Below, piece after piece: positions 25,101 through 48,600 of a stretch of 64,000 nucleotides of DNA. The stretch is taken from contig NC_092678.1 of NCBI RefSeq assembly GCF_964355755.1, positions 12,930,922 through 12,994,921 on the forward strand. The letters are read 5' to 3'. The number at the start of each line of letters is the position of its first letter. Positions within the stretch are counted from its first letter, which is position 1. Source of the stretch: Antedon mediterranea (taxonomy: Eukaryota > Echinodermata > Crinoidea > Comatulida > Antedonidae). The notes under the pieces are model-generated. The model ran no database searches. It had not been told where the DNA came from and was given only the letters and a program-made list of their open reading frames with translations. The translations under genes were made by a program, and so were the position numbers.

Positions 25101-28100
25101 CGATTTTTATTTTATTTTATTATAGGCTATTTATATTTTTTGCTTTATGTACACGACAACTAACGATCAAATAACAGTTTTTTCACATCGCAACTTATAC
25201 AACGTAATTTTGAAAACTACAACCATTTTTTTCTATATACATACAACGTACATTTCTATTTTAACAAAAACATTTTTCTAAACTTTCTATTATTTAAAAG
25301 TCGAAGATAGCCAGGTCTCGGGTCCATTCTATTGTCGCCACAGATTGATATCTTCATCAGTACTTCTATGAATGGATGATTCGGTGGGAACACGAACGCT
25401 AGTTGATCATACCCAGTACCGTTTTGATCGTACGATTAATCGGGAAACCACCTTACGACATTAACAATTTTATGAAATATTTTCCGCTGACCAATTTTCA
25501 TACTATAAATATATATTATATATATGTTGTTATGTTTGTATATAAACATTTGTTTTTTTTTTAAATATTAAAAACAATTATTAATCATACAGATTGTAAT
25601 ACCTGTGTTTTATTAGTATATATTTATTAAAATAAACATTTTTTGTTTCATTTTAGAATCCAATTATATCTGATTTGAGTCCAAGGTTTGGCATTCAAGC
25701 TGGTGGAACTACACTAACATTCAGTGGATCTAATCTGAACACTGGGAATGATGTAATGGTATATATTGATGGAAGTGAATGTTATGTTACCAGGAGGTAT
25801 GAAATAACATTTTGTACATTCATTATTTTCAAGTCCAATGATCTTAATGAAGCTGCAGGTTATGTTACTAAATAAATCATAATTGTATATATATTGACAT
25901 GTAAATGATTGCCTTTACCAAATTCTAACAACTGTTTTTTTTATTTTACAGTATCAATGAAAATCAGATAATGTGTACAACATCAAATTATACATCTGGA
26001 GCTGAAGTTGCAGTAACAGTTACATTTGGAAATGCTGTTAGAGATGGTCCTACATTTACTTACACTACAAATCCCACTGTGACTGACTTCCAACCTAATA
26101 AAGGCATTCAAGCGTAAGAAGAATCTTCTTAATATAATAATAATGTTCAATTTATATAGAGCAAAATACAGGGCGCCTCTAATTGCTGAAAAATCAACAG
26201 AAAATGTTATAAAAGAGCAAAGGCTTAATAATGAAAAGGCAAAATATAACGGTGAAATTTGAGGAGTTGTTTAAATGTGGCGAGCGGCTGTCCTGATTCA
26301 GTTTGAGAAGAACAACAGCTGAACAGGAACAGGTGCGTTGTCGATAATATTTTGTTGAAGGCTGTGTAGGTATAGGCCTGAGTAAAACCTCTGATGATGA
26401 CCTCAGTGTCCGTTTTGGCTTGTATGAAGAAATTGGAAGTAAAATCAATTGACTCCTTCACAATTAAAGCACCATATTCCAAGTAATGATATTGTTTAAA
26501 ATGCTTATTATTGCAGAGGTGGTCAAACCATCAGAGTGACCGGAACAAATTTCCAATATGTACAGAAAGCAATGATGTTGTTAAATAGCAAATCAGCTGA
26601 AAATGTAAGCTTTAGATACAGGATTTACATTTCTAATTTAATAAATTTCAACAGAAAGAGAGGTTTTCATTCAATGTCAACAATGTTTACATCCATATCA
26701 TTCATCCATATGAATATATCTATAATCCATATCCATCTCAACTCAAGGATGTAGACCCAACGCAAGCGAGTTGACCAATGAAAAGTAACAGTTGGAATAA
26801 TTAATTGCTTCTGATTGGTCAAATCACTTATGTTACATGCGTCCCTGTGCATCTCTAGTAGGAACCAAGCATAGTCCCTTCTCTGATGTAATTGTACTCA
26901 ATGCTCAGTACATTAAATCATCTGCAAAAGCATCTGATTATCAAGTATAGTTAGATGTCAAGTAGATAATTTTAAGATCGCTGATTTTCTCTTTTCTACA
27001 CAAAATAGACCTATTGTGTATTTATTTTGGTTATAATTGTTACTAAACAAAGTAGATTTTTTTTTCAGATTTAAGCAAAGCATATGACTTTAAGAACATT
27101 AATTATTTATTTTTAAAATTCCTTGTAAATTGTTCTTTAATGTACATACTAAATAAAGAAATTGTGTGGTGTTTTTTCAGAACTGTATAACTCTGTCAAA
27201 TGAGGAGATGGATTGTGAAAGTCCACCAGCAGATCTCTCCACATCAGGTCATCGTAGCAGACGACAGGCAGACCAGACAGTTTTACCTTTGACCTTTTCA
27301 TTTGATGGTTTCATTCCTGCATTGAGGGGTGATTTTGGATTCTCAGTTTACCCTAATCCAATATATTATCCCTTTGATAATATGTCTTTTTATGGAGAGA
27401 CTGTAGTAGATGGAATATACAGATTTGACAAACATATTGATGAATTTATGAAGTTGATGGTAATTATATAGTTTTATTTCTTCAGCAGTGTATTGCGTAA
27501 AAGCATTGAATCAACTCGACTTAACACAATAGAAGGATGTAATTGAAACGCAAGTCATTTGACTATTATAATGCATCAGTCGTCTAATGAATAGTCAAGT
27601 TACTTGTGTTGTGCTTACATCATGCGATGCGTGTTAGGGGCAACCAAGTTACGTGTGTTGTGCTTACATCATGCGATGCGTGCTAGTGGCAACCAAGTTA
27701 CTTGTGTTGTGCTTACATTATGCGATGCGTGCTAGTGGAAACCAAGTTACTTGTGTTGTGCTTACATCATGCAATGCGTGCTAGTGGAAACCAATTAGTT
27801 ACTTGTGTTGTGCTTACATCATGCAATGCGTGCTAGTTGCAACCAAGTTACTTGTGTTGTGCTTACATCATGCGATGCGTGCTAGTGGCAACCAAGTTAC
27901 TTGTGTTGTGCTTACATCATGCGATGCGTGCTAGTTGCAACCAAGTTACTTGTGTTGTGCTTACATCATGCGATGCGTGCTAGTGGCAACCTAACTATAG
28001 TTTCTACTGCTGCACAAAATATTTACACAAATCTCAGAATTGTTATAATTGAATTTAGTTCTATTATAGTTGGTTTTTGTAAAGTGTATTATTGAGCTAC

Positions 28101-31100
28101 ATTTATTTTGTTAAAAAAGAACTTTTCAAATCCTTATTGAATCAGTAATTTACTGATTGTGATTAGTTATTATTAATTTAACAAATGCTTTTGTACATTA
28201 GGGTTCTGACATCAACCTTGCTAGTGATGTTGAGGATGTTGAAGTCTTCATAGGAAGTGTTAAATGCACTGTAAATTCAATAACACGTACAGTAGTTCTT
28301 GTTGAGATACCAGACAAGGAACCTAATCCAGTAGATGGTGAAGATCATCCTATTGTTATGGTAGGTCGTGAGCTCACTAGATAATACTTTTAATATTATA
28401 TATAATATTTTTATCATTTTCAATAGTCTGTAACCAATAATGTCAAAATCACAAATTTTTTGTAAACGAACTCAGCAATATTGTAATATTAATTAATTTA
28501 TTTTATTTTTAAGATGGACTACGTTATTTATGTTGTTCTGTTTTAATTGCTGTTTAGACTTAGGCTGAATAAGTAAAACAACGTGTAGAACTTAGAGACA
28601 AAAAGTGTTTGTCAAGATCCTAATTTTACAAAATTCTACTTAAACATTTTTGAATATATTCATTCTAACATTATTACTACTAGATTGTTTTTAACAAAAA
28701 AATGTACTACAGAATGTAACCAATGTTAGTGTTTTAATATTGATTGTCTCCAAATAACTTTAGATCCGTCATGGAAATCTAAAGTTAACTTTCGGTGCAA
28801 TAAGATATGTAGGCATTGGATTGTCTACCACCGTCATAATTATTATAATTACGATTGTTGTGATTGTGGCTATCACCATTACGATCATACCTGTCTACTG
28901 GCGTAGATCAAGAATACTCGAGAGAAAATTGGAAGAAACAACAGTGAGATTTTTTAGAAAAAGTAAGCTAGAAAGCAGTATAGATAAATTCAAACTATTT
29001 TACATCATATGGGGCTTTGAAAAGTAAAAACTAAATTTGGATATATGATTGATGTAAAATATAACTGATTATTTCTACAAAAATGTTCAATAAACTAAGA
29101 GTAGTGATTTACTTTTTGAAATAGGCAGATTTCACCGGTGCAGATTTTAAATTACTATCGCAAGTCATCTAAAATTTTTATAAATACAATTACCTTGTGA
29201 TCTTCACTATTAATGCATTATTTAGAATAAATGGCATCTACCTATGCTCAACAAAACAAACAAGATAATGGGAGTGCCTATATGAATACGCTACTGGCAA
29301 ATTAATATGCACAATTAATCAAAATGTTTGGAAATTTGTAGCGCCGGGTTTAGGCTTTAGGTACTGTATATAGATGATGATGATAGCATATCGGCATTAT
29401 AATGAAACAATAAATTACACATTAAGCTACATTCAGTATATACTTAGAAAGTCAATACCTACAATTTAAGTAATTTTTAATAAATTCATTCATTTAGAAG
29501 AAGAAAAAGAAGAGGAGTTTCTAGAAATAAATGACGATAATTCAGAAGTAAGGTATATGGGCATAGCGCATGACAGCATAATAGCAAGGAAATTTAGTCA
29601 GAGTAAAGAGCATTATATACAATGTATGCTGTTTCTAGGATGTGAGATGACTCCAGTAATGCAAGAAAGTGGATATGTAAGATATTGCGACTTGCTTGTG
29701 ATTACACAACGTTACAAAACATTTTGTTGGATATCAATTAACGCAGGGTGTTACCTCAATGATTAATTGTATTTTGTAAGGATTTTGCAGTATTTACACC
29801 ATGTCATCCGAAAGGAAGAAAGGAAATTGTTAAAAATTAAAAATTCTCAACTTTACATAATCTTGTTTTAGAAAATTATGGTTTTACATTTATTTACAAA
29901 TACGTAAGAGAATACGATATAATATTATAATATTATTACTCTTTTTTTTCTCTTTTGTGGCGCAAACACCACTTTTATTCACATTCATATTATCTCATAT
30001 TACATAAAATCGTATTATTTAACTTGTAAATGTCGTTACAGTTCATAATTAACATTTTTACATTATATGAATTCTGTATGACTTCTTTTTTCATAAATTT
30101 TCTTATATTTTGTTATACACTTGACAGGATCATCATTATCATCTATCCCGTTTTAAAATAGTTCACACATTTTCATTTGTTTGTTTTCATTTTACAACCC
30201 GGATTATACAATATATTTATATACATGTTAAAAAAAACAATAATAGCTCAGTACCACCAGTAACCCGTATCACTGTAATTCTTTTTCGGTTAATCGTATC
30301 AAATTAGAAATTATATTATCATAATCTTATTTCTTAAAGCTACCCATTTTTCTATACTTGTTTCTTTATTGTTATATGTTTCACATTCAATGTTATATAA
30401 CATATTGCTTTTAAATGAATTCCATAAAGAAATACCCACTGGCTTATTTAGTGCAGATAACATTTTTATTCTATAAATAGTAAATGCTGCAAAAGTGTAA
30501 ATATAATCTATTAGCTTATCTCCCGTTCCTAGTATTAATTGTTTAAATGATATATTATTGTGATTTAAACTTACAAAGATACTAAGCATTTTCCTCTAAT
30601 ATTTCTGAATAAATCTACAACTAAAAAACAAATGATTTTCATTTTCAATTTCTCCACATTTGTCACACGTTTGTGTTTCCTTAACTTTCCACTGATACAG
30701 CCGTTTGTTGGTAGGCAGTATTCTATGTAACATCTTATAATTGAATTGTGCTAGTTTCTTATCTTTCATTTTACATACTTTCCGTAACCAAGAAGTTTTC
30801 CAATCAATGTTGTTATCATTGAAGTACTCTTCCCATTTTAGTTGTGACATTGGAATAATGAAATATTCTTTCACAAACCATGAGTATATTAGTTTGGTAG
30901 TATTAATCTCATACTTGGTCCCAACTAATTCATCATTATCATTACAATTGAAAATATCTACCTCCTTAATAATACATTTCCATTGAATTGGTATTGCCTT
31001 AATAATGCACAGATACTCAACCAGTTTGTTTTACATTGTAGTTTCACCATTATATCGTTATAAGTTTCAGGTTTTTTTTAGAGATTCTGTTATAATTTAT

Positions 31101-34100
31101 GTAGGCTTTTATCATGTTTTTGTAAAACAGTGGAATTTTATCAGAATTAACATCAATAATGTTATAACATGACATATTAAGTAAAACATTAACATCACAT
31201 ATTTTTTTAATATAATACATTGGAATATTTTTCCATTTAGCACCATCATCATTCATAATTCTTTTTAACCAGCCACACATGAGTGCGTTAACATGAAGAG
31301 TAAAATCAGGCATTTTAATACCTCCCATCTCAACATCACCAATTAGAGTTTTTCTTTTTATCTTTTCCCTTTTATTGTTCCAAATAAAATTATACATTAG
31401 ATTTGTAACTTGTGTATATACATATTTTGGAACATCAGTGATATTTGCAGCATATGTTAATTTAGATAGTGCAAGACTTTTCAGGAAGATTATTCTACCA
31501 AAAATTGAGAGATTTCTAGCATTCCATTGTTTTAAAGTCTTTTCTAGCTCTATTAATTTAACATCCCAGTTTTTTCTGGTACATTCTTCTGTATTATACC
31601 CTACATATATGCCTAAAATTTTGATCGGGTGTTTTACCCAATTTAATTCTAAAGGTCTATCTATTCTGTTCTTCCATTTACCAATCCAACAAGCATTATT
31701 ACTCTTTATATGTTATGTGGTATTGTTTTATTATTTTGTAGACTGAACTGTTGGAAGATCATCGAGGTTTACCTGAACTGGATTTATTTTTGGACGAGAA
31801 GATTCTAATGAAAATAATTAACATTTTAGACAATGACTCATCGTTTACATCTGTACAAAGGTATATTAAACAAATTGTAATGATTTTAGATTTAGATTTA
31901 GATAATAAGTCTATGGTTATGATACAATATCGGTACAAGAGGTAGGGCCTACAAGGACGCTGCAATCAGTGCCACTTTTAAGTTACAATGGTTCACGTCT
32001 AACTTTGTCTATTATATGGTTCTGGTGGCAGAACACGTAAGAAAAACCGTTACAGTCTATTGGTTACTATAATACTATAATTATGCCTACAATTATTACA
32101 AACTTTTATCTGTTTTACTTTAGGCAAAACTTTTCCGCTTTGTTCTTAATGGCCATGGTTGGTGATGATAAAACAGAATATCTATTTCAGTGAGTAATAC
32201 TTAGTATATACCTTATTAATTTACAATTCTTGTGTATTACGTATGCAAGAATGAACGATAGAATTGGTAGCACTGACTGACTTAAGCGACAAGATGTAGT
32301 TGGAAAGTAAATTATCTAAGTCCACAGTAGCAATGATCGTTATACAATAGTTATTATTAAGTAATTCTATGGTTACGCTTAATTCTAATATGTTGTGTGA
32401 TTAAATATTTTAGTATTATGGATATGCTTCTAAGCAAACATATTGCTAACAAAGTGAAGGCCAAAAATGTCAAGTTAGCTTTAAGCAAGTGGGTACAGTT
32501 ATTTTGTGTTTTTAATAATTAATTATTAAAACCTAATTTGCAAACGTGTGTTTATCAAGTTATGACATATTACTTTTAGTGACTGTGAATGTGAAATATA
32601 CTTCAATATGTACTTATATACTTCTTATATACTTCATATACTTTTAATCTATTGCTATATTAATCAAATGTAATATAGCAATTACCTTCAATTACAGAAA
32701 CGGCGAAACTGTTATCGAACATATGATATCTCACGTGGTGGCATTATGCATGTATAAATACACAATGGTATGTAAATTATTTTATAAGTTAATAATTATA
32801 TCTACATTATTCTACTAAATATTAGTAAGTAATACGATGTGATTTGGTTTACGTAATGTAAAATTAGCTTTGTTTATGTTAGTTTAATAATATAAGATTT
32901 TCTTTCTATCAGTCAAGATCAAGTGGCGCTGTGCAACACGGCGACACAGCTCGTCTCATTGTCTCACTATTGTTACTCATTTTTTGACGTTATTTTCGTA
33001 TATTTGGACTGTATTGTATTGTGGAAGAAGTCATTTGATTTATACACTTCAGCGATTTTAGGAATGCCAGCTTACTTGCATTCACGGAAACCTACCTGAG
33101 CGATAAGCATAGCGATCAACATATTCAAGTAGTTGGCTTTAAATCTGTTCGTGGGGATCGTACAGCCGAAGCGAACAAAGATGGCGGTGGTGGTCTTTGC
33201 CTCTACATTAATGAGAAATACTGTCATCCAAATAACTCTACGCTTAAGCTTCATAAATGTTCGCCACACTCGGAAGTGCTGGTTGTTGGTATTCGCCCCT
33301 ACTATCTTCCGAGAGAGTTCTCGCATGTTATCAATGTTATGGTATACATACCTAACAAAAAGCTTGAAAAGCCTGCTATAAATGAGATCGCAGAAATTAT
33401 CGAAGGTATTGAGTGTAGTCACCCTGAGGCGCTTGTAATTATCAATGGCGATTTCAACAGATGCAAGCTCAAGAAAACAACGGCCACTTATTATCAGCAT
33501 GTTACATGTAAAACGAGGGACAACGCGATTCTTGATTTATGCTACTCTAGTGTGAAGGATGCCTATATTTCGACCCCACTACCGAACTTGGGCAAATCTG
33601 ATCATAATTTGATTTTACTCAGTCCTAAATATCGCCCGTTAAATAAGACATGCCAACCAAAAATTATTAATGTACGTAAATGGTCTCCTGAAGCCGAGGA
33701 AGCCCTGATAGCGGAATTTGAATCTACCGATTGGGATATTTTTACGGAGGATGAAGATTTGAATAGTATTACTTATGCAGTGAGCTCGTACATAAACTTT
33801 TGTATTGATAAATGCGTTCCAGTTAAAAAAGTGAAAATCTACCCTAACAACAAGCCATGGATCACGAAAGGCGTTAAATTACTGTTGTGTGAGAAACGTA
33901 AAGCCTTTAAGATGGGCGACTCTAATCGTATGAAAATATTGACTAGAGAGATTAAATCTGAAATAATGAAACAGAAGAACATTTATAGGAAAAAAGTTGA
34001 ACATAACTTCAGGTCTAATAATATGAAACAAGTTTGGCAGGGTATGAAACTTATGAGTGGTTACACAAACGGTGGTAATACACCCACCTCGATTCCGAAT

Positions 34101-37100
34101 GTTACTGTGCAATATGTTAATGAGTTAAATGAATTTTATAACCGTTTTAATGTTCATGATTTTAAAAAAGAAAGAGAGGCTCTATTTAGCTTGTGTCGGG
34201 TGACTGAAGATGATCCCAAATTTAGTATAAGCATTTCTGATGTACATAACGAATTCATGAAACTCAATTCATCGAAGGCTGCTGGGCCGGATAAAATCCC
34301 ACCACGAGTACTTAAGGTCTGCTCTCCTCACCTTGATGGTATATTTACATTTATTTTCAATATGTGTCTTTCTTATCATGCGTTCCCGGATATTTGGAAA
34401 CTTTCATGCATAATACCGGTACCTAAGAAACCTAAGATTAACAGCATGAATGATTTGAGACCCGTTGCACTCACGTCTGTCGCAATGAAAATATTGGAAC
34501 GTATTATTTTAAAAATTATGCAACCTTATGCTGAAAAAGTGTTAGACCCGTTGCAATTTGCTTACCGATCACTCCGTAGTACCAGTGATGCGATTTATTT
34601 TAAATTACATAAATTGTATTCACATCTAGATAATGTAAAGAAAGGCCATTCGGCACGTATTATGTATTTTGATTTTCAATCTGCGTTTAATACCATACAA
34701 CCCCATATCTTAGCAGACAAAATGTTGAATATGGAGTTTCCCCGTCCGATTGTTCGTTTAGTTTTAAATTTCATTTGTGATAGAAAACAATTTGTTAATA
34801 TTAATGGTGTTAAGTCAGAAATCGTAACCTCTGACACCGGTGTTCCTCAGGGTACTGTCAACGCACCTAAATTATATTCCTTGTATACGGCGGATTACAG
34901 ATCTTTAAATGATGAGCTTTGCCCCGTTGTTAAATTCGCTGATGACACTAGTACTATTGGTCTCATAGTTTCAAACAATGATGAAAATTATCGTAGCGAA
35001 ATACAAAGATTTGTTAAATTTTGTGACGATAATTATCTCCAAATAAATGCATCAAAAACAAAGGAGATGATCATTGATTTTAGGACTAAACATAAATTTA
35101 ATTTTCAACCAATCAAAGGTAAAGAAATTGAAATTGTTGACCAGTACAAGTATCTAGGAATTGTTTTCAATGATAAACTGAGTTGGGGAGACCATATAGA
35201 CTTCATCAGCAAAAAATTAAGTCCCAGAATGTATTGTATGAGAACTTTATATAAATTTAACTCCTGTGATTTGATGTTACTTTCGTTCTATAGATCCGTT
35301 ATATGTAGTGTTTGGACGTATTGCCTCTCCTGTTGGGCTGGTAATGTTACCGGAGGGAATAAAGGACGCCTTGAAACTTTCATCCGTCGGGCTGGTAAAA
35401 TGATTGGTCTGGAACTGCCTTCCTTTACCGATGTGCACCTAGAACACCTCCAGAAAGATTTCGAACGCATTGAGTCGGATGCCTCTCATCCTCTCCACAA
35501 AGTGATCATAGATCAACTTAATCCAAGTGGTAGATTGAGGCTCCTCAGTGTGAAAACAAATCGATTTGCTAAATCCTTTATTCCCTCCGGTATCATCCAG
35601 TACAACAGGAAGTCAAGAAGATAATTTTATATTGTAATTTTTTAGATGTTTTTATATGAATGGTTTTATGCTATATTTGTTTTTATAGTGTTTTCTTTGT
35701 TATTATGACGAGCAATGAATTTCCTTTTTGAGGATCAATAAAAGTTATCTTATCTTATCTTATCTTTTCTAAACAATAAAAGTCTCTTTTTTATTTGTAA
35801 CAAATTTGACTCTTTTATAAGTTACCTTGATTAGTTAGGAATATCAAATAAAGTCCATCAATCATCAATTAATCAATCAATCAATCAAATAAGATCAGAT
35901 CTAAAATAACGTACTGTATATAAATATATTATGTGTGTTGTAAACTACTTGGTTCACTTCAATTTTGCAGAAGTATGTATCAGGGCCTCTTTTGCAACTT
36001 GTAGATGCTATAACTACGAGAATAGATAGTGGTGCGGTAGACGCTGTTCATCATCATTGTCAATATTCTTTAGACGAGAACTGCCTTCTGCCAATTGATG
36101 TTACTGGAGAGAATATAGTAAGATATCTGCAAATGTTTTGGAAACATTTGAGTATATAACATATAACACTGAAGCATAATACTACTTGCAAACAATTATT
36201 TTAATACATTTTTAGAGCTCATGACAAGTAAATGTGTATATAATAAAATGTTTAAGAAGGTCAGATAATCCCGTAAATATTTAATTATTAGCCAATCCAA
36301 AAAATACTGAATTTCCACACAAATTCAATGGCATTTTGTTTCAATTTAGAATTTGAGTTTGGTAGTTGATGAGGAAAAACAAGAAATTGTGAAAGTAAAC
36401 AGTTGTGATACGCTATTTCAAGTAAAACAAAAACTGTTAAATGTTATGTTTAAGGAACAACCTTTTTCAAAAAGACCCAACGTTTCATACGTTCAGTTAG
36501 GTTAGTACACCAACAAACAGGCAATTTAATTGTATCTTGCTCCTTTATTCTGTAGATTTCAATTAAATACATAATAACCTATTTTTTTAAAATCTAGAAT
36601 GGAGAATGAATGTAGATCAACGAATTATTTTACAAGATATCGATTTACAGACAGAAAGAAAACTAAAAACAATTGCAGATTTTGGAGTAATATTACTGTA
36701 GTATTTTTTGTTTTGTAATAAATTAACTGTTAGAAAAATGTATTAAACCTATAATAGGCTTACTAGACATAGGCTGTGTACAGGCCGGACGTCAGTGTAC
36801 ACAAGCTGAACATGACGCATGTACCTTAATTGATTAAAAAAAAATACTTTTCTACACACTTTTCTAAATCAATCACTACTCGGATCGTAAATTTGAAGAA
36901 TTATTTTTTTTCAGATTCAAAATGAAGCAGTGGTAGCGTTTGTAGACGTTTGGAAGGAAGATATCAACGCGTCAGACCAGTATGATACAATTAAGCAACC
37001 AATAGTTGCTAGACATGGTAATAATGATAATATGTATTGGTATACATACTACATTCCAACCTTACCAGTATCTACTAATATATTTTACTTTTTCAGTTTC

Positions 37101-40100
37101 TTCTTATTTTATGTAATTATAATTATTCAATAATAGATTAATAATATAAAAAAAAACAATACTGTTTATAAAGTCACGGCCATTTATACTAAATATTTCT
37201 TATTGGTATTATGTTATATTTCGGCAAACACATTAACAAACAACATCAAACAGCTTTATTGCGCCAATGAGTGGCAGAATAGACCAAGTTATTTGTTGTT
37301 GTTTGTGCTATTGTTATTGTTATTATTGTCTATGGTCTAACTTTACTTTTTAAGAAACTAACATCTACCAAACATCAATCAATGCAGATGGCACTTTCCA
37401 CATTGTGAGTGTTTTTAGTTCAAATATTTTTGAACCATTAATTGAATAACATTTGATATCAACAAATCTTATTGCTTATTGGACATCTAATAATTAACTG
37501 TGAACTAAATATGCAGGAAAGTAGCTTTACGATAGTTGATAATCTGACGTTACACCAGTTACTGTTGGTCGTTTAGACGTTCTAGTTTAAAAAATATTTT
37601 GGCATACATTGCTTGTCATAACTAAACCAAAATCACCGCTCGTGGCGATACGTAAAAAGAAACAATTGACAAGTGTAGTCGGTCAGTTTTGATTTTGAAA
37701 TGGAATTTTTTTGAATGTTTAGTTGGAAGGAAATGTGTACACGGGTGCTTATGATGCAATGGACGGCGAGAAGCCAGATATTGATGAATCCATCTTTGAA
37801 AGGTTAACTGAAACTAAGGTAGGAATAAATAAAAACAAATTTTTTTGATTTAAACTATTTTGAAACAGTTGGGTTTTAATAGGATGCAGCTTGACATGCA
37901 TATGAGACGAATCACTCTGAATGTATCTTGTTGTTGGTCAAACTTGTGTTGGCCGTCTGGATACTGGGAACTTGTTTCACTCACTTTTATTGTTGTTCTG
38001 CATATATCGAACATCATTGGTTTGGTTTGATGAATCATGTTTTTCCTTAATATTTTACAGTAATAAGTATATTAATATCTCACATGTCCACAGCAAATAT
38101 ACCAGCAGCATGTTGACTCCATAATGAATAATGTGTTCAGCTCATCATCGAACATCCACCTATCATTATTTGTTAAATATCTTTTTGATTTTCTGGATAA
38201 CATGGCGACTAAGCATGGTGTTAGTATCAATGAATTGAAGATATGGAAGAACAACAGGTATGGAAATTGCAAAAAATTGTTAGATAATGAGGTTTTACTT
38301 AAAGCTCACGACGGTGTATCTACGATTTACATCGAAGAATTAGCTCCCAATTATTTAATTATTTAATATTAAGAGAAACAATGTTAAGAAATTTAAATTA
38401 TAATTATTTAAAATTCAAATTAAAAATGTAATCATTTATTTTTATATAGGCCTATGAGCGTTTATTTCTTCATTTATAATGAGCATTTTTTTAAATGATT
38501 TTTCCTTACAATTTCCATATCATCTTGTATTTCTTCCATTGTCCATACAATATAATCAAAATAGCAAGAGAAACCAGAAATGGACTAGATCAATAATCAT
38601 ATTTGTATCCTTTTTTAGTTTAGCTGAGATGTTTTGGTTAAGAATTCTGAGAAACCCTGCTTATGTCTGTGACATTCACCAAACGCCCCCTATTGATATC
38701 ACTCTCGGTGTCATCTCTACTGTTTTTCGAGAATCTTGGTCAATTGAGCTGTTTGGTTTTAAAAAGGTAAGCAAAACAATGCATTTATTTATTTATTTAT
38801 CGTATGTCCGGCTAATTTAATGTGTTATTTCCGGTCATCGACAACATCTGACCGTAGACCTACTTCTAAAGGTTACCGGTAATGAATCAGTCTTACTGCT
38901 TTTGTTTCTGTTGAGAATCATTTGTTCATATTATTCTTTTAGTTATATATTTGCACGATTTTGTTGAAATTAAGAACTAAACCTAATATACCGTAAACGA
39001 ACAGTTTTTCTAAATCTGGCATAATTTTTATCGCGAATACACTTTGTTTTGATTATTTATATTCCAAACCTTCATCTGCAAATCGCTTCACAGCTCATCA
39101 ATGTAGATCACCCTACGGTTTCAATATTATGATTAATATTTATATCTTTATACATATTGAATGATGCAAGCATTCACAAGCTACTTATGTTTTAATAGCT
39201 ACATGACTATTTTGTAATATTTCATCAGTCATTTAATATGAAACGCCTATTTTTGGTTAAAGTCAGGTCAAAATGTGTTCTTTAGTGCTTGTTTAACTTT
39301 AAATTTTTTATTTCAAAGAATTCGCCAAGTCATCGACAGATGTATGTAAAAGAGATTCCAAGATACCGCCAACTTGTTACTAAGTTCTATAGTGACGTCA
39401 AGCATACTCCATCTTGTGATCGCATGAACGTTATTGATGAAGTAAATTCTCTTATACAGGTATGTACAAAGACTATCAATATTGTTATTTCTCAAAGAAA
39501 CTAATAGGCATAGGTCAAGGCATAGGCATATGTCAATAAATACAAACATAGACATAAATACGGTAACATTATATACTAATACTAACGTTTTTTATTCTCA
39601 GCCATTTAGCACATTGTTTAAGAAGTCGAGTGTGTTAGTGAATCTTCATTCATTTACGGACAAATATTTAAGAGAGGTAAATATAAATAATTATATACAG
39701 ATCTTTTGATAGTGTACCAGCAGAAAGAGATTTACTGATCTATACACGTCGGCTTTACTATACTGTACTAAACAGTTGAACTAATAGTGAACAATTAGAG
39801 TACTTCAATCAACACTTTTTCATGTATTAAAATTAAAAAAAGGCTTTCCATTTTATTATCCGATTTACATACCAAATAAAATTAATTATTACATGTATCT
39901 TAGTAAAACAATGTGCATTTCCCGTGCAAACATCATTCTGCCTCTAACATTTATCATTTGAGTAAACGTTGTTAATATTTTAATATTTTAATTAAATATC
40001 AGGTTAAAGACGCATTCCTTAAAGGTACAAATATAAATGAAAGTACTGTTGAAGTTTTTACAACAAAAGTAAGTAAGTCGTCGTCGTCGTCGTCGAAAGA

Positions 40101-40212: not shown

Positions 40213-41520
40213 TAGCAGTAAATAAGCTTTTGGTTATATTTGCAAATACGTACGTTTGTCTGATTAACTATTGTAACTATAATTTAGTTCACTAAAGATT
40301 TATAGCTACTTAAATAGGCCTATTATAAGTACCAATACAGATAAAAACGTTCACTGACCATATAAGAAAATATGTATAATAAGCTTTTGACCAATACTAA
40401 TTAACATTAAATTACATTTATTAAAATAAATATCAATATTTAATCAAATGGTATAAATAAATATATATTAAAATACGCAGAAATCCAGTTTCAATATGCA
40501 TAATGTAATGTAATACATTTATTTCTTTTAAATATTACCATATATTAATAATAATTATATAAGTGCTTCTAAGGTTTATAAAATGAAAGTTAGTGTATGT
40601 GTCATCCACACGCATGCGCAATTCAACTTAGGTAGACTGCAAGACACATCTTATTCTCCCACATTTATATTTACTGATGCACAAAATATTAGTCATCTCT
40701 GTAAATATTAAACAATAAGTATTTTGAATTTCAGTAATATCTATATTTTTTGCGTGGCTATAAAAATACTAGCCTACTATTATTCATTTAATCACGTGAC
40801 AACACATTCATTGGATATATAATTAAAGATCACGATTTAAAATGCTTGTTGTTGAATATGCCATGTAACATAATAGGTATTCACTTTGACTAAAAATTGG
40901 ATAAAAAATTATTAAATGGAAAAAAAATTGTAGGCCTAATTTAAAGTAAAAAAAAAAATTGGCTGCCAGCCAGTCGGTTTCGGTTACATTTAACCGTTTA
41001 ATTCGTCTCTTTATAAGTAGAACTGTTTTGTTTGTTTGTAAGTGAATAACTTGATTAAAACTTCAAAATGGCCTATTCAAAGTCTGAGTTCATGTTTTTT
41101 GGGGTTAGGGTTAATAAACAAGATTTATTATCAATTTTGAATCATATATATTACCAAATATTTCGTTCTAGTTTCAATATTTAAATACGCAAAATGCAAA
41201 TATCATAAATACTACATTAAAAAACAAAAATGAAATTGTAAACATTGTTACATTTTGAAAATACAACAATGGACAAATCGTAATAATTGCGACGCAATTT
41301 GAGACGCTAACTTTTAGCAGCAGTCTGTTTTTATTTTCACAACGTTGTTATACTTTAGGCCGCTGTCATCATCTGTTAAAGAGATAGAAATTACAATTGT
41401 TATTATTACATAATACCATAACTTATTATATTATATGGAATTATAATTATATTATTATGTTTATGAAAATAAAAGAGACATTTTAATTAGTATTTTTATA
41501 TATTTTCTTATCATCCTAAG
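40213..41520. other. Intergenic region 3' of the plexin stop
   Basis: AT-rich. Likely holds the plexin 3'UTR; several AATAAA-like signals are present but none can be chosen. 40850-41110 is a dispersed repeat related to 56140-56415. Confidence 0.5.
40850..41110 (+). repeat. Dispersed repeat, copy 1
   Basis: Diverged relative of 56140-56415: both run through TTCACTTTGACTAAAAATT, a TTTAACCGTTTAATT or TTAAATATACTGTTTATTTT segment, AAAATGGC, TTCAAAGT and TTCATGTTTTTTGGGG in the same order. Confidence 0.55.
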
Positions 41521-42022
41521 GATGAACATATTGCACACAACATCTCACACTGTACGAATCATTACAACTCGAACATATTGCACACAACATCTCACACTGT
41601 ACGAATCATTACAACTCGAACATATTGCACACAACGTCTCACACTGTACGAATCATTACAACTCGAACATATTGCACACAACGTCTCACACTGTACGAAT
41701 CATTACAACTCGAACATATTGCACACAACGTCTCACACTGTACGAATCATTACAACTCGAACATATTGCACACAACGTCTCACACTGTACGAATCATTAC
41801 AACTCGAACATATTGCACACAACGTCTCACACTGTACGAATCATTACAACTCGAACATATTGCACACAACGTCTCACACTGTACGAATCATTACAACTCG
41901 AACATATTGCACACAACGTCTCACACTGTACGAATCATTACAACTCGAACATATTGCACACAACGTCTCACACTGTACGAATCATTACAACTCGAACATA
42001 TTGCACACAACGTCTCACACTG
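41521..42022. repeat. 47-bp satellite, left part (~10.7 units)
   Basis: Unit has TGTACGAATCATTACAACTC and GAACATATTGCACACAACGT. Copies are almost identical. Because 47 is not a multiple of 3 and the unit lacks stops on this strand, all three frames look open; these are not genes. Confidence 0.95.
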
Positions 42023-44468
42023 CAGGGCCGTAGCCAGGATCTGTCAAGGGGGGGTTCGCACACTAAGTAGTTGAATGTTAAATGTTTTGTTAAATGACAC
42101 CCCTAGATGGCCGGAAAAGACACTCTCATGCACAGCATGCTACCAATGAGCAAAACGATCGTACTTGGACTCGTTGACTATTTCAACGATAACATTTGTT
42201 GCCGTATGTTAGATGCGCGTGCTCTGTGCGGAACCGCCGATTGTTTGATCATTTACTCGATATTTTGTTTTGCGTTCAAGTTCAATGCGAACGTACGTCT
42301 AGGAGAAGCACCGAAAAAAGCACACTGGGTGAAGGCAAATGCAATTCTTATATAGCTCTATCTATAATATTTATTTACAGCAATGTGTTGAGGAAATTAA
42401 ATATGCCAATGTAAATAGGTGATATTCAGGGGCGCAGCCAGCAAAGAATTAAAGGGGGGGGGGTCAACCAATATGTGAGTATTTTGCGAGCGAAGCGAGC
42501 AACCATGGGCTGGGGGCCAGGGGGCCGCCAAGGGCCCTCGGTTGGGGTCCAGGGGGCGAAGCCCCCTGGAAGCTTTGGCGGTCTAGGGCAATCTAGATCA
42601 TTTGAATCGGTTTACGCACACACAAATATGACAATGTTAACACTAATAAACTGAAACAAAGAAAACAAAAAATAACTCTCATTTTCATTACAGAACATTT
42701 TTATATTCCAGGCTGCCACAGACAAACACTTTTTTTCTTGCTTGTTTGTTGATTTGTGTAGAGAGGCTGTAAACTCAGAGGAGGAATTATTTGAATTCCT
42801 CCCTTTTCACCAATACAAAAGTTGCATGAAATGAACGTAGAGATGCAAAAGTTTGAAAAAAGAAATTAGAATGATAGCATGGAGGGAGTGATATTATTAA
42901 ATGAGAACCGTAAGGTTAGAGTTCATACACTATGCAAGTCCAAGAAGCTATCTTGCCTCCGTGTGTATGTGAGACGCTTATCATACCCAGTACATACAAT
43001 ATTTTGTTTAAAAATATACCTATTTTGTTCGAATGTATAGTATAGGTGCATGGATAGCTTATACATAATTGTAATAACTAACTTCTAAATTATTATCATA
43101 CATTTTACGTTAGTTACTATAACGGCGCTCTTGACATCGCGTGATGCATCTTTAAACATAAGTTTGGAACATTCTTCTTGGCTTGGAGACAGAATTCGCG
43201 AATGACATTCTCTGTATTAATGTTCATGTTAAAGTGTATGTTCATGAGGCACAATCCCGAAAGCTGCTCATAAGACATGTGATTTCCCAAACAGGTTTTC
43301 GTTCTCCATAAAGTCGAAAAACTCCGCTCAGCTTAAGCAGACGTTACGGGCATAGGCCTACGCGATTAGAAGAAGTGCACACACATTCGGGAACACATCT
43401 GGATCCGCTAATTTTACACAGTCGCTTCCATCACTGAAGCTCGGAATGAAGATGTTCGTGTCTTGGCAGATCATCGTACCAAGAAGTGCACACACATTCG
43501 GGAACACATCTGGATCCGCTAATTTTACACAGTCGCTTCCATCACTGAAGCTCGGAATGAAGATGTTCGTGTCTTGGCAGATCATCGTACCAAATTCAAG
43601 TTCCTTGAAGACTTTTCTTCAACATTACACTTCACGATAGACTCGGGTGCTACGCCAAATATTTTAAAGCATGGCCTGTTATCGGCAGAAAAACGGGTTT
43701 TTAACTCGGTTTGTAATCAAGAAGTTGATTTGGTAATACTGCTCGGTAGTAATCTTCCACAGTATCTCCAGGATGATTGATCTGTATTGTTGTCTCATGT
43801 TTTTATTTATTTTTTCTAAAAAAAAAGGGGGATCAGGACCCCCGTGACCCCCCCCCCCCCCACTGGCTGCGCCCCTGATATTGATACATTTGAGTATAAT
43901 CGGATGCCATAATGTGAACTACAGTACATGATACCATAGATATTATAGTGTAAAATATTAATATTCACTATAATCCTCTATGATACATTATACTTCATAG
44001 CCACACATAAATACTGATGTATGTCGGAAGGCTATATACTTTATGCATGCTGCCTGACTGCCAGTGATCTAAACAATTGGTACGCAGTTGTCTGGCGGTG
44101 TCCTTTGTACGAATCGTTCGTCCCCCAGTTCGCTGTGAGACGCGTCAATATCATGTTACATGCAGGGACCCTACATTTATTTTTCAGGTTAAAATCCGCA
44201 ATTCATTTGCAACTCTTTACAGACTATATCGCTCGAAGTACGCTCATACAGGGAAGAAGGTACTGTATGAGTTATTCCGAACGAGTTTACGAATTTTTTA
44301 ATTTACAAACAACTTTTTGTACTGTGGGGCACGTATTTGGACGATTTTCGGAGATGAGGGTGAGGTATTGGGCATGTCGGGGATGGGGGTTCGCAGTCGG
44401 TTAAGGGGGGTTCGCTGTAAAGGGGGGGTTCGCCCGAACCATAAAAACCCCCCCTGGCTACGGGCCTG
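42023..44468. mobile_element. 2.4 kb DNA transposon inserted in the 47-bp satellite
   Basis: Ends CAGGGCCGTAGCCAGGATCT (left) and CAGGCCCGTAGCCAGGGGGG (right, inverted). The satellite break shows a 5-bp duplication CACTG (42018-42022, 44469-44473). Contains a nested element at 42427-43877 and, at 44035-44170, a stretch related to the internal module of the hAT element at 6510-7790. No intact transposase. Confidence 0.9.
42427..43877 (-). mobile_element. Nested hAT-like element, copy 1
   Basis: Inverted ends CAGGGGCGCAGCCAG and 5-bp duplication ATATT (42422-42426, 43878-43882). About 90-95% like the copy at 53419-54734 by eye. A ~110-bp stretch is tandemly duplicated here (about 43371-43480 and 43482-43590) but single in copy 2. 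Carries broken remains of a hAT transposase on the - strand. Confidence 0.88.
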
Positions 44469-45105
44469 CACTGTACGAATCATTACAACTCGAACATACT
44501 GCACACAACGTCTCACACTGTACGAATCATTACAACTCGAACATATTGCACACAACTCTCACACTGTACGAATCATTACAACTCGAACATATTGCACACA
44601 ACGTCTCACACTGTACGAATCATTACAACTCGAACATATTGCACACAACGTCTCACACTGTACGAATCATTACAACTCGAACATATTGCACACAACGTCT
44701 CACACTGTACGAATCATTACAACTCGAACATATTGCACACAACGTCTCACACTGTACGAATCATTACAACTCGAACATATTGCACACAACGTCTCACACT
44801 GTACGAATCATTACAACTCGAACATATTGCACACAACGTCTCACACTGTACGAATCATTACAACTCGAACATATTGCACACAACGTCTCACACTGTACGA
44901 ATCATTACAACTCGAACATATTGCACACAACGTCTCACACTGTACGAATCATTACAACTCGAACATATTGCACACAACGTCTCACACTGTACGAATCATT
45001 ACAACTCGAACATATTGCACACAACGTCTCACACTGTACGAATCATTACAACTCGAACATATTGCACACAACGTCTCACACTGTACGAATCATTACAACT
45101 CGAGA
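44469..45105. repeat. 47-bp satellite, right part (~13.6 units)
   Basis: Resumes exactly where the left part stops once one CACTG is removed. One unit near 44560 is 2 bp short. Together the array has about 24 units. Confidence 0.95.
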
Positions 45106-45464
45106 TGCTTTGACCAAACTTAAATATTACGTAGTACTTAAAATAAAATATTCTTTTTAGTGTATTTCCACATGGATATACTGACAACGCATTCACAAGC
45201 ATTTGAAATGAGCTAGCACTTTTGATTTGTCAAATTAATTTCGTTGTGCGTAAGTCTTTGCATTGCGCACCAACCATAATAACATTCTTAACCTGTCGTA
45301 AGCTTCATACACACTTGAATGGAACGAAGGTCTGCGTCATTTGATTGAATAATGGAAACATTAAACAAAGAATTGACAGGACTTTGTCCGTAAAAATAAA
45401 CAAAATGTAGCTGTATACGGGAACTATGATTTTAGTGATAATTAAGGTAATAATAATAACTCAC
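45106..45464. other. Region between satellite and last found gene-2 exon
   Basis: No coding exon could be joined to exon o here; the 3' end of gene 2 may lie here or further left. Confidence 0.4.
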
Positions 45465-45665
45465 ATAGCCAGTTACCCTCATTAGATCCTGCGGTCTTGA
45501 AGTCTGGCAACTCTTTTGATGAGTCCCACTTGTCCTTACTGACAAACTGCCATGTTGCTCCATTATCTTTACTGCGCATGTAACTGCGCATATCCTTGTG
45601 AATTCCATAGATATGCCCTTTGGATTGGTCCGAAGCAATAACGTTGTGGAGGTACATTGGCAGTG
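45465..45665 (-). CDS. Gene 2 exon o: Asp-box exon
   Basis: Phase 1 to 1 with donor TAT|gtgagt. Contains HNVIASDQSKGHIYGIHKDM and SKDNGATWQFVSKDKW; SKDNGATW is an exact Asp-box, found on beta-propeller loops (sialidase/BNR, sortilin). If the donor is not used the frame ends eight codons later with TAA, so this could be the C-terminus. Confidence 0.7.
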
Positions 45666-48600
45666 CTATTGACGAAAAATGTGAATTATGTGTATTTAGG
45701 TTCACGGAGAATGATTTAAACGCAATTTATCAAATTCATTTCACTATTCACCATCAGAACTAAAGTTGCCGATTAAACAAAATGGATATGATTTAAGGCG
45801 CTTCTGCTTTAAACCCTCTGCTACTTGATTCGACATAGGGTAGTGGTTTGTGGCAGCTGAAAGTGTTTAAGTTTGTAGAAGTCCATGGGTCAGTGCTATC
45901 ATTGGAGTAAAGATACAAAAAATAATAAATCATTAAACTCACCTTTCCATCTCCCATTTGGTGGATCATCTTGTACATAACAGGACGGAACAAACTTCTG
46001 GGATAGACGTCCATATGAAGGATTACAAGCAAAAATGATGTAATTAGCTGGATCGTTCAATTTCTTAGTTATTACAAAACCCCGATCATAATAATCTGTC
46101 AACATAAAAGCAACACAAATAAAATGCAATGTGGGCAATGTACGAGTTATTCGTTTGTTCTTGAAATTAATCTAAATATTAATACAGCGTGCTATAAATC
46201 GCAGTTATAACTGAGTTGCATGGTATTTAAAAAAAAATAATGTTCACACAGCATTGTATAAAAGAGCATTAAAACAAATTGATAACATTGTATATTAAAG
46301 CTGTTTGTATTAGTGGTGAGTGAGTATGGCATTTCTAAAGATCGCACTTGCAGACGTCTACACTAAATACCCAGACTTGGAACGTGGTGTTTTGGATGTT
46401 ATCAATTATGGCCTACGTAAAAGAAGGTTTTTTCTTCAAAATATTAAAATCATTTTGTTTACTAAGCATTGTTAAGAAAGTACCTGGAACTGGACAGTTA
46501 CTAGAATCTCTGACACACACAGTGTGCTTTCCGTCTTCACATTTATGGGCACCAGCTACACAACAATCACACTGGTTAGATCCCAAGTCGTAATGGCAGA
46601 CGCATGTCTGAGTATTAGCCCACTTGCTGTACCTCATCACAGTTTCTTTAGCATAGTTTTGTACACGTATCTCTGACGAATAATTATGTACTCTCTTTTA
46701 TTTTGTGTTTAGAGTTCAATTTGGTTCCATTTTATTCGACTACAATATTTTAAAAACGTGGTGCTGGTTTGTAGGCTTAAAAACTGTTTTACTAAACATT
46801 GAATTGATTAAACTAAGAATACTCAAATAAATCAATGGATCAATTTTGTTTATATAAAATCTTGATTTACTTTGAAACGACCAAATTTGGCGCTTCTCCA
46901 ATTCGTTCAAATACAGTAGCTATGTATTCTTTATACTACCTTGAGGCATAGAATATTCACAAATGGCTGGTAAGATAGCGGTACACTCCATAATGTCCCA
47001 GTCTCCAAGATCAGTACTGACGTCGTCTGTTGCGTCATAGATCTCTATATAAGCCGCAGTTCCACAGTCTTTATTCGAGCTTGTCCCGGGTCTGTTAGGT
47101 AGCCATTTTGTATATGACGCTGATGAACCGTCTGTCCACTTGAACTCATCACCCTGTGTGAAAGTTCATGGTATACACTAAAATTGTTTTTTAAATTGTT
47201 AAAATAATTGTTGAATAAACCCACCGATAATAATGAGAAATTTCAGAACACCGTTAACGTAGTAAATGACGAAAATAATGTTTAATTTGTCGACGAACAT
47301 GATAGGACACTAGCCCAATTGCAATCTGATACATTTACACATCCAACTAAAGTAGAACCCCTTAACTTGCAACCTTACATTGACTGTGTAGAGAATAACA
47401 TGGGATTAGCAGCCCCATTCCAAATGAAAGAAGAACAAAGTAAGGAACAAACTAATCTAATCATGACAGCACCTAATGATTCTAATATGACAATAAACCG
47501 AGGTAGATTTAAAGCAGGACATTTCCAAGTTTTAGTTTCGTATTCTAAACTGACATTAGCCAAACGTAACACCGATAATACAAAACACGAACCTAATGTT
47601 CGCAAATTTTGGTGGAATATTGACGACAGATATAACGATACAGATAAATTGATTAAAGAGATTATTAATAATAAACAGATACCGATAAGTGGATCGCCAA
47701 AACGATTCATAAAACGTTTGTATAATGCAAACAGTTACTGAATTAATTTTTTTGCAAGATTTTTTTTTAAAATTACGACATTTGCTAAATTAATGATAGC
47801 ATAGTCTACGTATTTGATTAGATGTGTTTAGTAATGATGTGATTTTAGTTAAAAGAGAATTGAATTTATGTTTAAGTATTGATTTTGTAACGAGTTTTTT
47901 GATAAAGATTAATTTTGAATTTTGTCGACCGATCGAAATCGTAATTACTTGTGAATAAAAATGCTTAAATCGATAAAGTTGTGACGATAACAATATATTG
48001 TGAATAAGTTTGTGTTTTATATTTTGAGTCAATTATTGATTTTAGGCTAATCAGCGACAGTTTTCTTGAGTTTTATGTTTTGATTTGATTGATTTATGTT
48101 TGAAGGCCATTAGAACGCGATGAGTTGTCGCACGATCGGAGGTATGTTCAATGTAACATATTATTCTATACGTTTTGTATTTTTATTTTTAACCGATTTT
48201 TGTTTGATTTACGCGAATCCCGTTATTATAGATTAGAGTGCATAATTAACAAGATAATTAACGACTTCGTGACCGATGTTCTTTAGTGAAACCCCACCGT
48301 TGTGATGTCTTTATTTCGGTAATCCGAGTGTAGCATGCCTCCAAAGCAACGGACCCACAATTACGTCGATCTTGAACAACACTTTCGTTTTTTATACATT
48401 TTTTTCCAATTTTGTTTTATGAATTCCTGAATTTTATACAAAATTCACTTTTTAATTTTAATTTTTTTTTAAGAGAGAGAAGAGAGAGAGTTAAAATGAT
48501 AAGGTTACACTTCAGAGTCAATGGTTTTGGCTAACTCAATTTTGCTTATATGTATAATAATGTTTTTTTTCTTTTATATAACTTTAATTTTGCATGCCAC

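Follow-up and report, generated by a model that had tools for sequence, protein, structure and literature searches.

Can a plexin lose all the catalytic arginines of its GTPase-activating protein (GAP) domain and still be worth keeping, and what would such a receptor do? This question is raised by a plexin gene of the crinoid Antedon mediterranea that lies, apart from its first coding exon, in the window, a stretch of 64,000 nucleotides of contig NC_092678.1 (C9:12930922-12994921). A search of the genome (354 Mb in 18 contigs) places the gene in an array of two plexin types, termed A and B, of which the window gene is a B. With a probability of roughly 0.58, the array is best read as a set of plexin-based paired receptors, in which recombining shared ectodomains are mounted on two kinds of tail and the B tail has probably lost RapGAP catalysis, as far as sequence comparison can tell.

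The cytoplasmic part of the window gene is modelled as 14 GT-AG exons (31742-39676, forward strand), which splice into a protein of 487 residues without a stop. This protein matches the cytoplasmic chains of plexins in the PDB (3ryt, plexin-A1, E 2e-60; 3su8, plexin-B1, E 4.9e-59), two of its exons carry Pfam PF08337 (Plexin_cytopl) matches above cut-off (C9:12969009 and C9:12970231), and its fold is, as in plexins, a split GAP domain with an inserted RBD. The first coding exon is matched about 10 kb upstream of the window at C9:12919900-12920622, where an open frame with a signal-like start holds a Sema domain above the Pfam cut-off (C9:12920431); it is joined to the window exons by position. 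Judged by these matches, the window gene is a full plexin that has kept the cytoplasmic GAP/RBD layout.

Its catalytic site is altered. In PlexinC1, Arg711 superposes on the arginine finger of p120GAP, Arg1001 is equivalent to p120GAP Arg903, and Asn1005 and Asn1009 hold switch II of Rap, with mutation of either strongly lowering activity (PMC3787391); the three arginines are called essential to the GAP activity of plexins and conserved across species and subfamilies (PMC6597256). Where plexins read LMLRRTETV at the paired site and NSLPLRFW at the third, the window gene reads LALSKNGETV, with one extra codon after the Asn, and NSLAEMFW. Specifically, the first arginine is replaced by Ser (AGC, 32484-32486), the second by Lys (AA|A, 32487-32488 and 32698) and the third by Met (ATG, 38629-38631). 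The absence of all three arginines, and the changed motif in the C-terminal GAP half, had been put forward in the original prediction and hold in the open 14-exon frame. The second-arginine codon is interrupted by a phase-2 intron that is common to the five divergent plexin types compared; because this intron is shared, the homology of the arginine sites is supported, and its position gives a second guide, besides sequence, for the alignment.

The window gene is one of many. At C9:12.20-12.97 Mb, the array comprises six B and five A genes, arranged as five head-to-head A-B pairs and one extra B. Searching the genome with the window GAP protein returns the other B copies on the forward strand at 12.281, 12.355, 12.598, 12.712 and 12.816 Mb; spliced alignment recovers all 14 GAP exons in each of these five, with no stops, and the six B GAP proteins are pairwise 94-99% identical. 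The A copies lie on the reverse strand at 12.20, 12.50, 12.63, 12.75 and 12.87 Mb. Assigned from the positions of the first sema exon and the GAP exons, the pairs are A1-B1, A2-B3, A3-B4, A4-B5 and A5-B6, with B6 being the window gene and B2 unpaired. Elsewhere on C9 are a canonical plexin at 5.82 Mb, which has all three arginines (LLMRRNESV and LPLRFW), and three further divergent plexins at 2.46, 3.44 and 5.98 Mb. As such, a second plexin with intact arginines, which the original prediction had proposed to look for, exists at both 5.82 and 3.44 Mb. The B GAP domain shares an identity of 0.28 with that of the canonical gene and of 0.31 with those of plexin-A1 and plexin-B1.

Related fragments lie beyond the array. 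Incomplete A-like pieces are found at 13.85 and 14.05 Mb (9-kb stretches inspected), and A/B-like ectodomain pieces at C9:13.90-13.91 and 14.09 Mb on the reverse strand and at 15.19 Mb on the forward strand. An isolated match to the end of a plexin cytoplasmic domain, near the residues of the canonical gene, lies at C9:1965966-1966124 (reverse strand), where a surrounding gene model was not obtainable. Neither the two A-like pieces nor the sema pieces near 13.91 and 14.09 Mb enter the A/B counts, from which a GAP piece at 13.89 Mb and the other divergent plexins are likewise absent.

Across the array, the three sites are uniform within each type. All six B copies have S/K/M, with SKNGETV and AEMFW throughout, and A/R/K is found in 5/5 copies of the A type (QVLARTDSV and PSKFW), all five of which were inspected and four of which enter a five-position alignment. 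An assembly error in one copy as the source of these residues is rejected on the agreement of the six copies. Inspected by eye, alternative splicing of the window gene does not restore them either: a donor four bases downstream shifts the frame, the CGG CGA that opens exon 4 is out of frame, and no other splice choice yielding in-frame arginines was seen. At the third site, the genes at 2.46, 3.44 and 5.98 Mb have a CGG or AGG codon, whereas A has AAA (Lys) and B has ATG; the paired codons of the 3.44-Mb gene are AGA AG|A. Given an AGA/AGG ancestor, each of the B losses could have been a single-base change.

In B, the Asn1005 equivalent is R in five copies and S in the sixth, and the Asn1009 equivalent is N; in A, the two positions hold Q and H. 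Scored together with the three arginines, these positions are kept 5/5 in the canonical gene, with four kept at 3.44 Mb, two each at 2.46 and 5.98 Mb, and one each in A and B, the one in B being the Asn1009 equivalent. The Asn1005 equivalent is lost even in the 3.44-Mb gene with its three arginines, and is absent from the 2.46- and 5.98-Mb genes too. For the arginines alone, this one genome holds a series from three (canonical and 3.44 Mb) over two (2.46 and 5.98 Mb) and one (A) to none (B), a gradation that suggests repeated relaxation and of which, on the residues compared, B and A form the far end. B retains 71 of the 155 columns that are invariant in three references (the canonical genome plexin, plexin-A1 and plexin-B1), so the chance of losing three given columns is about 0.16; the triple loss is real, yet alone it is no targeted signal against the general divergence of B. 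Compared with canonical plexins (3ryt, plexin-A1; 3su8, plexin-B1; 4m8n, PlexinC1; and the 5.82-Mb gene), B has the same Sema exon and split GAP/RBD, with what looks like the ectodomain order and single transmembrane segment of a plexin, but lacks the three arginines and one switch-II Asn. By these residues, B does not look like an active plexin RapGAP, and the window plexin has probably lost this catalysis.

The altered tail is nevertheless maintained. Pooled ratios of nonsynonymous to synonymous differences per site (pN/pS) are 0.28 for the B GAP part (15 pairs of six copies) and 0.11 for A (6 pairs of four copies, over two GAP blocks of 362 codons that make up part of the domain). A3 was left out here and from both GAP trees, as one GAP exon lies beyond its sequence pieces; its three sites were still inspected. 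Fisher tests give p values of 0.070, 0.013, 0.002, 2.7e-6 and 1.2e-5 for five chosen, non-independent B pairs, and of 0.021, 0.004 and 6e-6 for three A pairs. By region, the B ratio is 0.29 in the N-terminal GAP half, 0.75 in the RBD (few changes), 0.41 in the linker and 0.19 in the C-terminal GAP half. The GAP part is retained despite the loss of catalytic residues, and the RBD is not specially protected. The earlier proposal of a plexin kept under selection for a job possibly without GAP catalysis gains support from these ratios and from the six open frames, whereas its variant of RBD-only signalling is disfavored, since the RBD is the least constrained part of B.

What is shared between the two types is the ectodomain. 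Among 13 first sema exons, A-B protein identity is 0.74-0.86, and mean synonymous divergence (dS) is 0.298 for A-A, 0.333 for B-B and 0.336 for A-B; the window's own exon is 73-77% identical to those of the five A genes, 74-80% to seven other B exons and 32-38% to those of the three divergent plexins. In two further ectodomain exons, A-B identities reach 0.77-0.93 and 0.89-0.96, and the window exon at 27181-27387 has an identity of 0.88-0.93 to the five A copies against 0.78-0.82 to B1, B2, B3 and B5. Overall, the ectodomain pieces of the window match A genes on the reverse strand at 77-95% and B genes at 57-97%, with the low end reflecting matches that overrun exon ends. The transmembrane/juxtamembrane piece, in contrast, is matched at the six B genes only. 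Between the window gene and A1, the only A copy compared there, identity falls from 0.91 in the last TIG-like exon (28202-28363) to 0.25 in the B-type transmembrane exon (28770-28961). A-B identity in the GAP part is 0.36 (24 pairs), and the GAP-exon tree splits A from B with a support of 100/100 and a branch of about 1.8 substitutions per site. One cluster thereby holds homologous ectodomains on different tails, as expected of paired receptors.

The ectodomains also appear to recombine. In the sema tree, A4 groups with B2 and B5 (support 100/99), and A as one clade is rejected by the approximately unbiased (AU) test (p 0.00027). A permutation test resembling the pairwise homoplasy index (PHI) gives p 0.001, the minimum possible with 1000 shuffles, for both 13 and 11 rows; the higher compatibility of neighboring sites, relative to shuffled order, marks the sema exons as mosaics. 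Additionally, head-to-head partners are more alike than permuted pairings (2/120 as high, the real one included). B4a and an extra sema exon at 12.576 Mb, to which no tail is assigned, enter the sema tree and matrix and stay out of the head-to-head and the sema-versus-GAP comparisons. In the latter, sema dS exceeds GAP dS in all 15 B pairs, at 0.25-0.41 versus 0.02-0.09 in 14 of them and 0.060 versus 0.056 in B2-B5. On these comparisons, the ectodomains look older and exchanged, and the tails recent or homogenized within their type.

Two local features of the sema exons may be added. The 3' end TEEADCSKHVGHFLF is common to the head-to-head neighbors A1 and B1 and absent from the other 11 rows, which suggests local conversion between these partners. 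For B3 and for B4, two candidates for the first sema exon lie upstream on the same strand (C9:12575980-12576705 and 12581795-12582511; 12682234-12682956 and 12684302-12685015), which could be alternative first exons; the second candidate at B4 is without a signal-like start.

Several points weigh against the paired-receptor reading. Recombining partners are seen for the first sema exon; for the two shorter ectodomain exons, A as one clade is not rejected (p 0.118 and 0.259), and A/B labels are still clustered in the sema tree (11 and 13 of 500 shuffles reach as low a value), which makes A-B exchange limited. The bootstraps of the sema tree had not settled, the PHI-like test is our own script, and the head-to-head test covers five pairs only, with B2 left out and one of the two candidate sema exons used for B3 and for B4. 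In a wider GAP tree, B is the longest branch and long branches meet, which makes the attachment of B among other plexins unsure. No 25-codon sema window has a pN/pS above 1, the highest being 0.96, so that hypervariability through positive selection, considered as a further feature of the array, is unsupported. Moreover, the Lys at the second arginine site of B keeps the charge, and from sequence some residual activity is possible.

The most likely way for the array to work as paired receptors can be sketched from what is observed, namely the residues, the difference in tails, the mosaic ectodomains common to both types and the purifying selection; beyond these we infer loss of catalysis in B and a shared ligand, co-expression and opposing output of A and B. 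Both types would sit on the same cells and recognize ligands that are identical or overlap. The A tail, with one paired arginine kept and Lys at the third site, would perhaps have a weak or altered GTPase action, and the B tail would bind GTPases or adaptors without hydrolysis, leaving Rap-GTP undiminished. B may then serve as a silent or opposing partner to A, as in vertebrate paired receptors. That a plexin without these arginines can act follows from fly PlexB, in which the engineered R1570A, R1571G and R1899A changes remove the same three arginines; the catalytic site is dispensable in all wiring processes examined, with residual activity not excluded (PMC6597256), and the receptor is still useful in them. 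The fly mutant is laboratory-made, whereas the state of B is natural and common to six genes.

Other explanations account for parts of this pattern. B could be a simple decoy or dominant-negative family that sequesters semaphorins or other B proteins, its likeness to A being only a side effect of conversion among tandem copies. The missing arginines and the multi-copy array would fit this, as would the usefulness of the fly triple mutant with whatever activity remains to it, but a pure decoy has no need of a GAP/RBD part under purifying selection (0.28, and 0.19 in the C-terminal half), and the tails are uniform while the ectodomains are diverse, which together make this an unlikely account. 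The decoy or scaffold receptor of the original prediction may still apply, but the main feature, an A type with the same ectodomain pool and another tail, was out of reach of that prediction. A single swap of the tail onto an A-like ectodomain, followed by duplication of the ancestral A-B pair and no continuing exchange, is rather improbable. Although the clustered A/B labels, the two shorter exons compatible with an A clade and the repeated head-to-head pairs, which suggest duplication of a unit, all speak for it, the grouping of A4 with B2 and B5, the AU rejection of an A clade in the sema exon, the mosaic sema exons and the window exon 27181-27387, which resembles the A copies more than it does four of the other B genes, do not fit.

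It is very unlikely that B keeps a GTPase-activating function through other residues or toward another GTPase: the literature calls the arginines essential to the GAP activity of plexins, with each one indispensable on its own (PMC3787391, PMC6597256), even if the Lys at the second site, the Arg at the Asn1005 equivalent in 5/6 B copies, the kept Asn1009 equivalent and the purifying selection on the GAP halves would be in line with it, and an alternative mechanism is left open for the fly triple mutant (PMC6597256). Decaying pseudogenes are hardly credible, with no stop in 6/6 B GAP frames or in the two GAP blocks of four A copies, splice sites kept and pN/pS well below 1 (0.28 in B); the incomplete A-like pieces at 13.85 and 14.05 Mb and the long B branch in the GAP tree are what such decay could explain. 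A more far-reaching version of the paired-receptor reading is less likely than not, though more probable than any of these rivals. In it, the head-to-head A-B pairs would form a self/non-self or immune complex of an echinoderm, with a diversified, recombining pool of Sema ectodomains and opposite outputs from a tail without GAP catalysis and an altered one; an axon-guidance receptor would thus have given rise to what KIR, Siglec and CEACAM pairs are in vertebrates.

The remaining features of the window gene, all on the forward strand, appear to follow the order of a plexin. The second and third Sema-domain exon pieces (917-1150 and 1568-1675) precede three PSI-like exons (1995-2093, 11599-11688 and 16075-16197), recognized by cysteine pattern and order only, and a TIG/IPT-like piece assigned by eye (25657-25788). 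The last TIG-like exon before the membrane gives the one Pfam TIG match, below cut-off (16.9 versus 20.9 bits, E 0.0066, in a scan of 28000-33038 only); the transmembrane exon was assigned by eye, and so was the model of the juxtamembrane exon (29497-29676), whose acidic insert is conserved in B copies. GAP exons 1 (31742-31860) and 2 (32124-32189) lead to exon 3 (32414-32488), which ends with the Ser codon and two bases of the Lys codon, exon 4 (32698-32767), which starts with the third Lys base and continues as Asn-Gly-Glu-Thr-Val, and exon 5 (35971-36117). Two RBD exons with PDB plexin matches (36350-36500 and 36598-36686) are followed by an exon of the RBD end and linker (36915-37017), a 17-nucleotide linker micro-exon (37388-37404) and a further linker exon (37723-37818). 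The C-terminal GAP half comprises exon 38094-38257, with the Pfam match at C9:12969009, the third-arginine exon 38619-38766, in which an Arg occupies the Asn1005 equivalent (38641-38643), and exons 39319-39459, with the match at C9:12970231, and 39602-39676. A C-terminal exon (40003-40068) may end with a splice after 40068 or instead continue to a stop after 40209.

Mobile elements appear to have entered the gene. The intron between GAP exons 4 and 5 measures 3203 nucleotides in the window copy versus 283-357 in the other five B copies and holds an open 861-residue frame of the long interspersed nuclear element (LINE) type (33039-35621, forward strand; RVT_1, E 3e-29). As the intron is long in the window copy only, the insertion appears to postdate the split of the B copies. 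Inspection by eye suggests another element of the reverse-transcriptase type in the intron that precedes GAP exon 1, where two frames are open on the reverse strand (30599-31712); a Pfam search of the frame at 31053-31712 gave no match. Downstream of the plexin gene are tandem arrays with units of 47, 61 and 89 nucleotides (41383-42152 and 44444-45260; 49835-51232; 59916-61461). One or more different genes occupy 45445-63460 on the reverse strand: 63011-63460 encodes an F5/8 type C domain (E 3e-16), and of several frames without an assignment, one at 45445-45726 has a weak Asp-box match that stays under its cut-off.

How do these genes relate to what is in print? An expansion of plexins in starfish and sea urchin has been described: the starfish Acanthaster planci has eight plexins, Plexin-B1 to -B8, that are distinct from plexin-A and were grouped with kinase-tailed Met-LPs by their Sema plus PSI domains (PMC6374515), so that, as here, plexin-A genes stand beside a separate expanded group. 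The tektins of the present genome would fit an echinoderm as well: three exons, from four loci inspected, score higher against 8snb, a sea urchin structure, than against the next-best tektin chain (238 versus 147, 290 versus 156 and 176 versus 138 bits). Two innexin matches exceed their cut-off (E 2e-6 and 1.5e-5), and a connexin search gave no match, which says nothing about absence since no control responded either. The word 'arginine' never occurs in the main text of that paper, and the sections consulted are silent on a loss of catalysis, on A/B pairing and on common ectodomains joined to different GAP tails. The same source reports Plexin-A1 to -A4 of the sponge Amphimedon with short intracellular parts and no conserved intracellular domains; like B, these would have no working GAP, and unlike them, B keeps a constrained domain. 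A flatworm study with 49 'plexin domain-containing' genes (PMC10900676) was set aside, as its proteins are named for a PSI-type domain and have another architecture.

Outside the plexins, gene conversion maintains the similarity of Siglec-11 and Siglec-16, and the same cells express both (PMC5701461). They may be the closest genetic analogue encountered and, like CEACAM and CD300 receptors, resemble A and B in carrying similar ectodomains on different tails with exchange between partners. For the vertebrate pairs, opposing signals and joint expression are reported; for A and B, which are plexins with an intrinsic GAP fold, both are predicted. By homology, B is classed as a plexin and, by the tested residues, not as an active RapGAP; plexin expansion is known, and searches of open-access papers turned up no account of plexins that have lost these arginines in nature, nor of paired plexins with ectodomains in common.

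These genes bear on a question that reaches beyond crinoids. The in vivo need for plexin catalysis is described as contested (PMC6597256), and a natural, multi-copy plexin that has lost all three arginines and is kept under selection offers a direct test of it. If the paired-receptor reading is true, axon-guidance receptors would additionally join the scaffolds from which animals have built paired recognition receptors.

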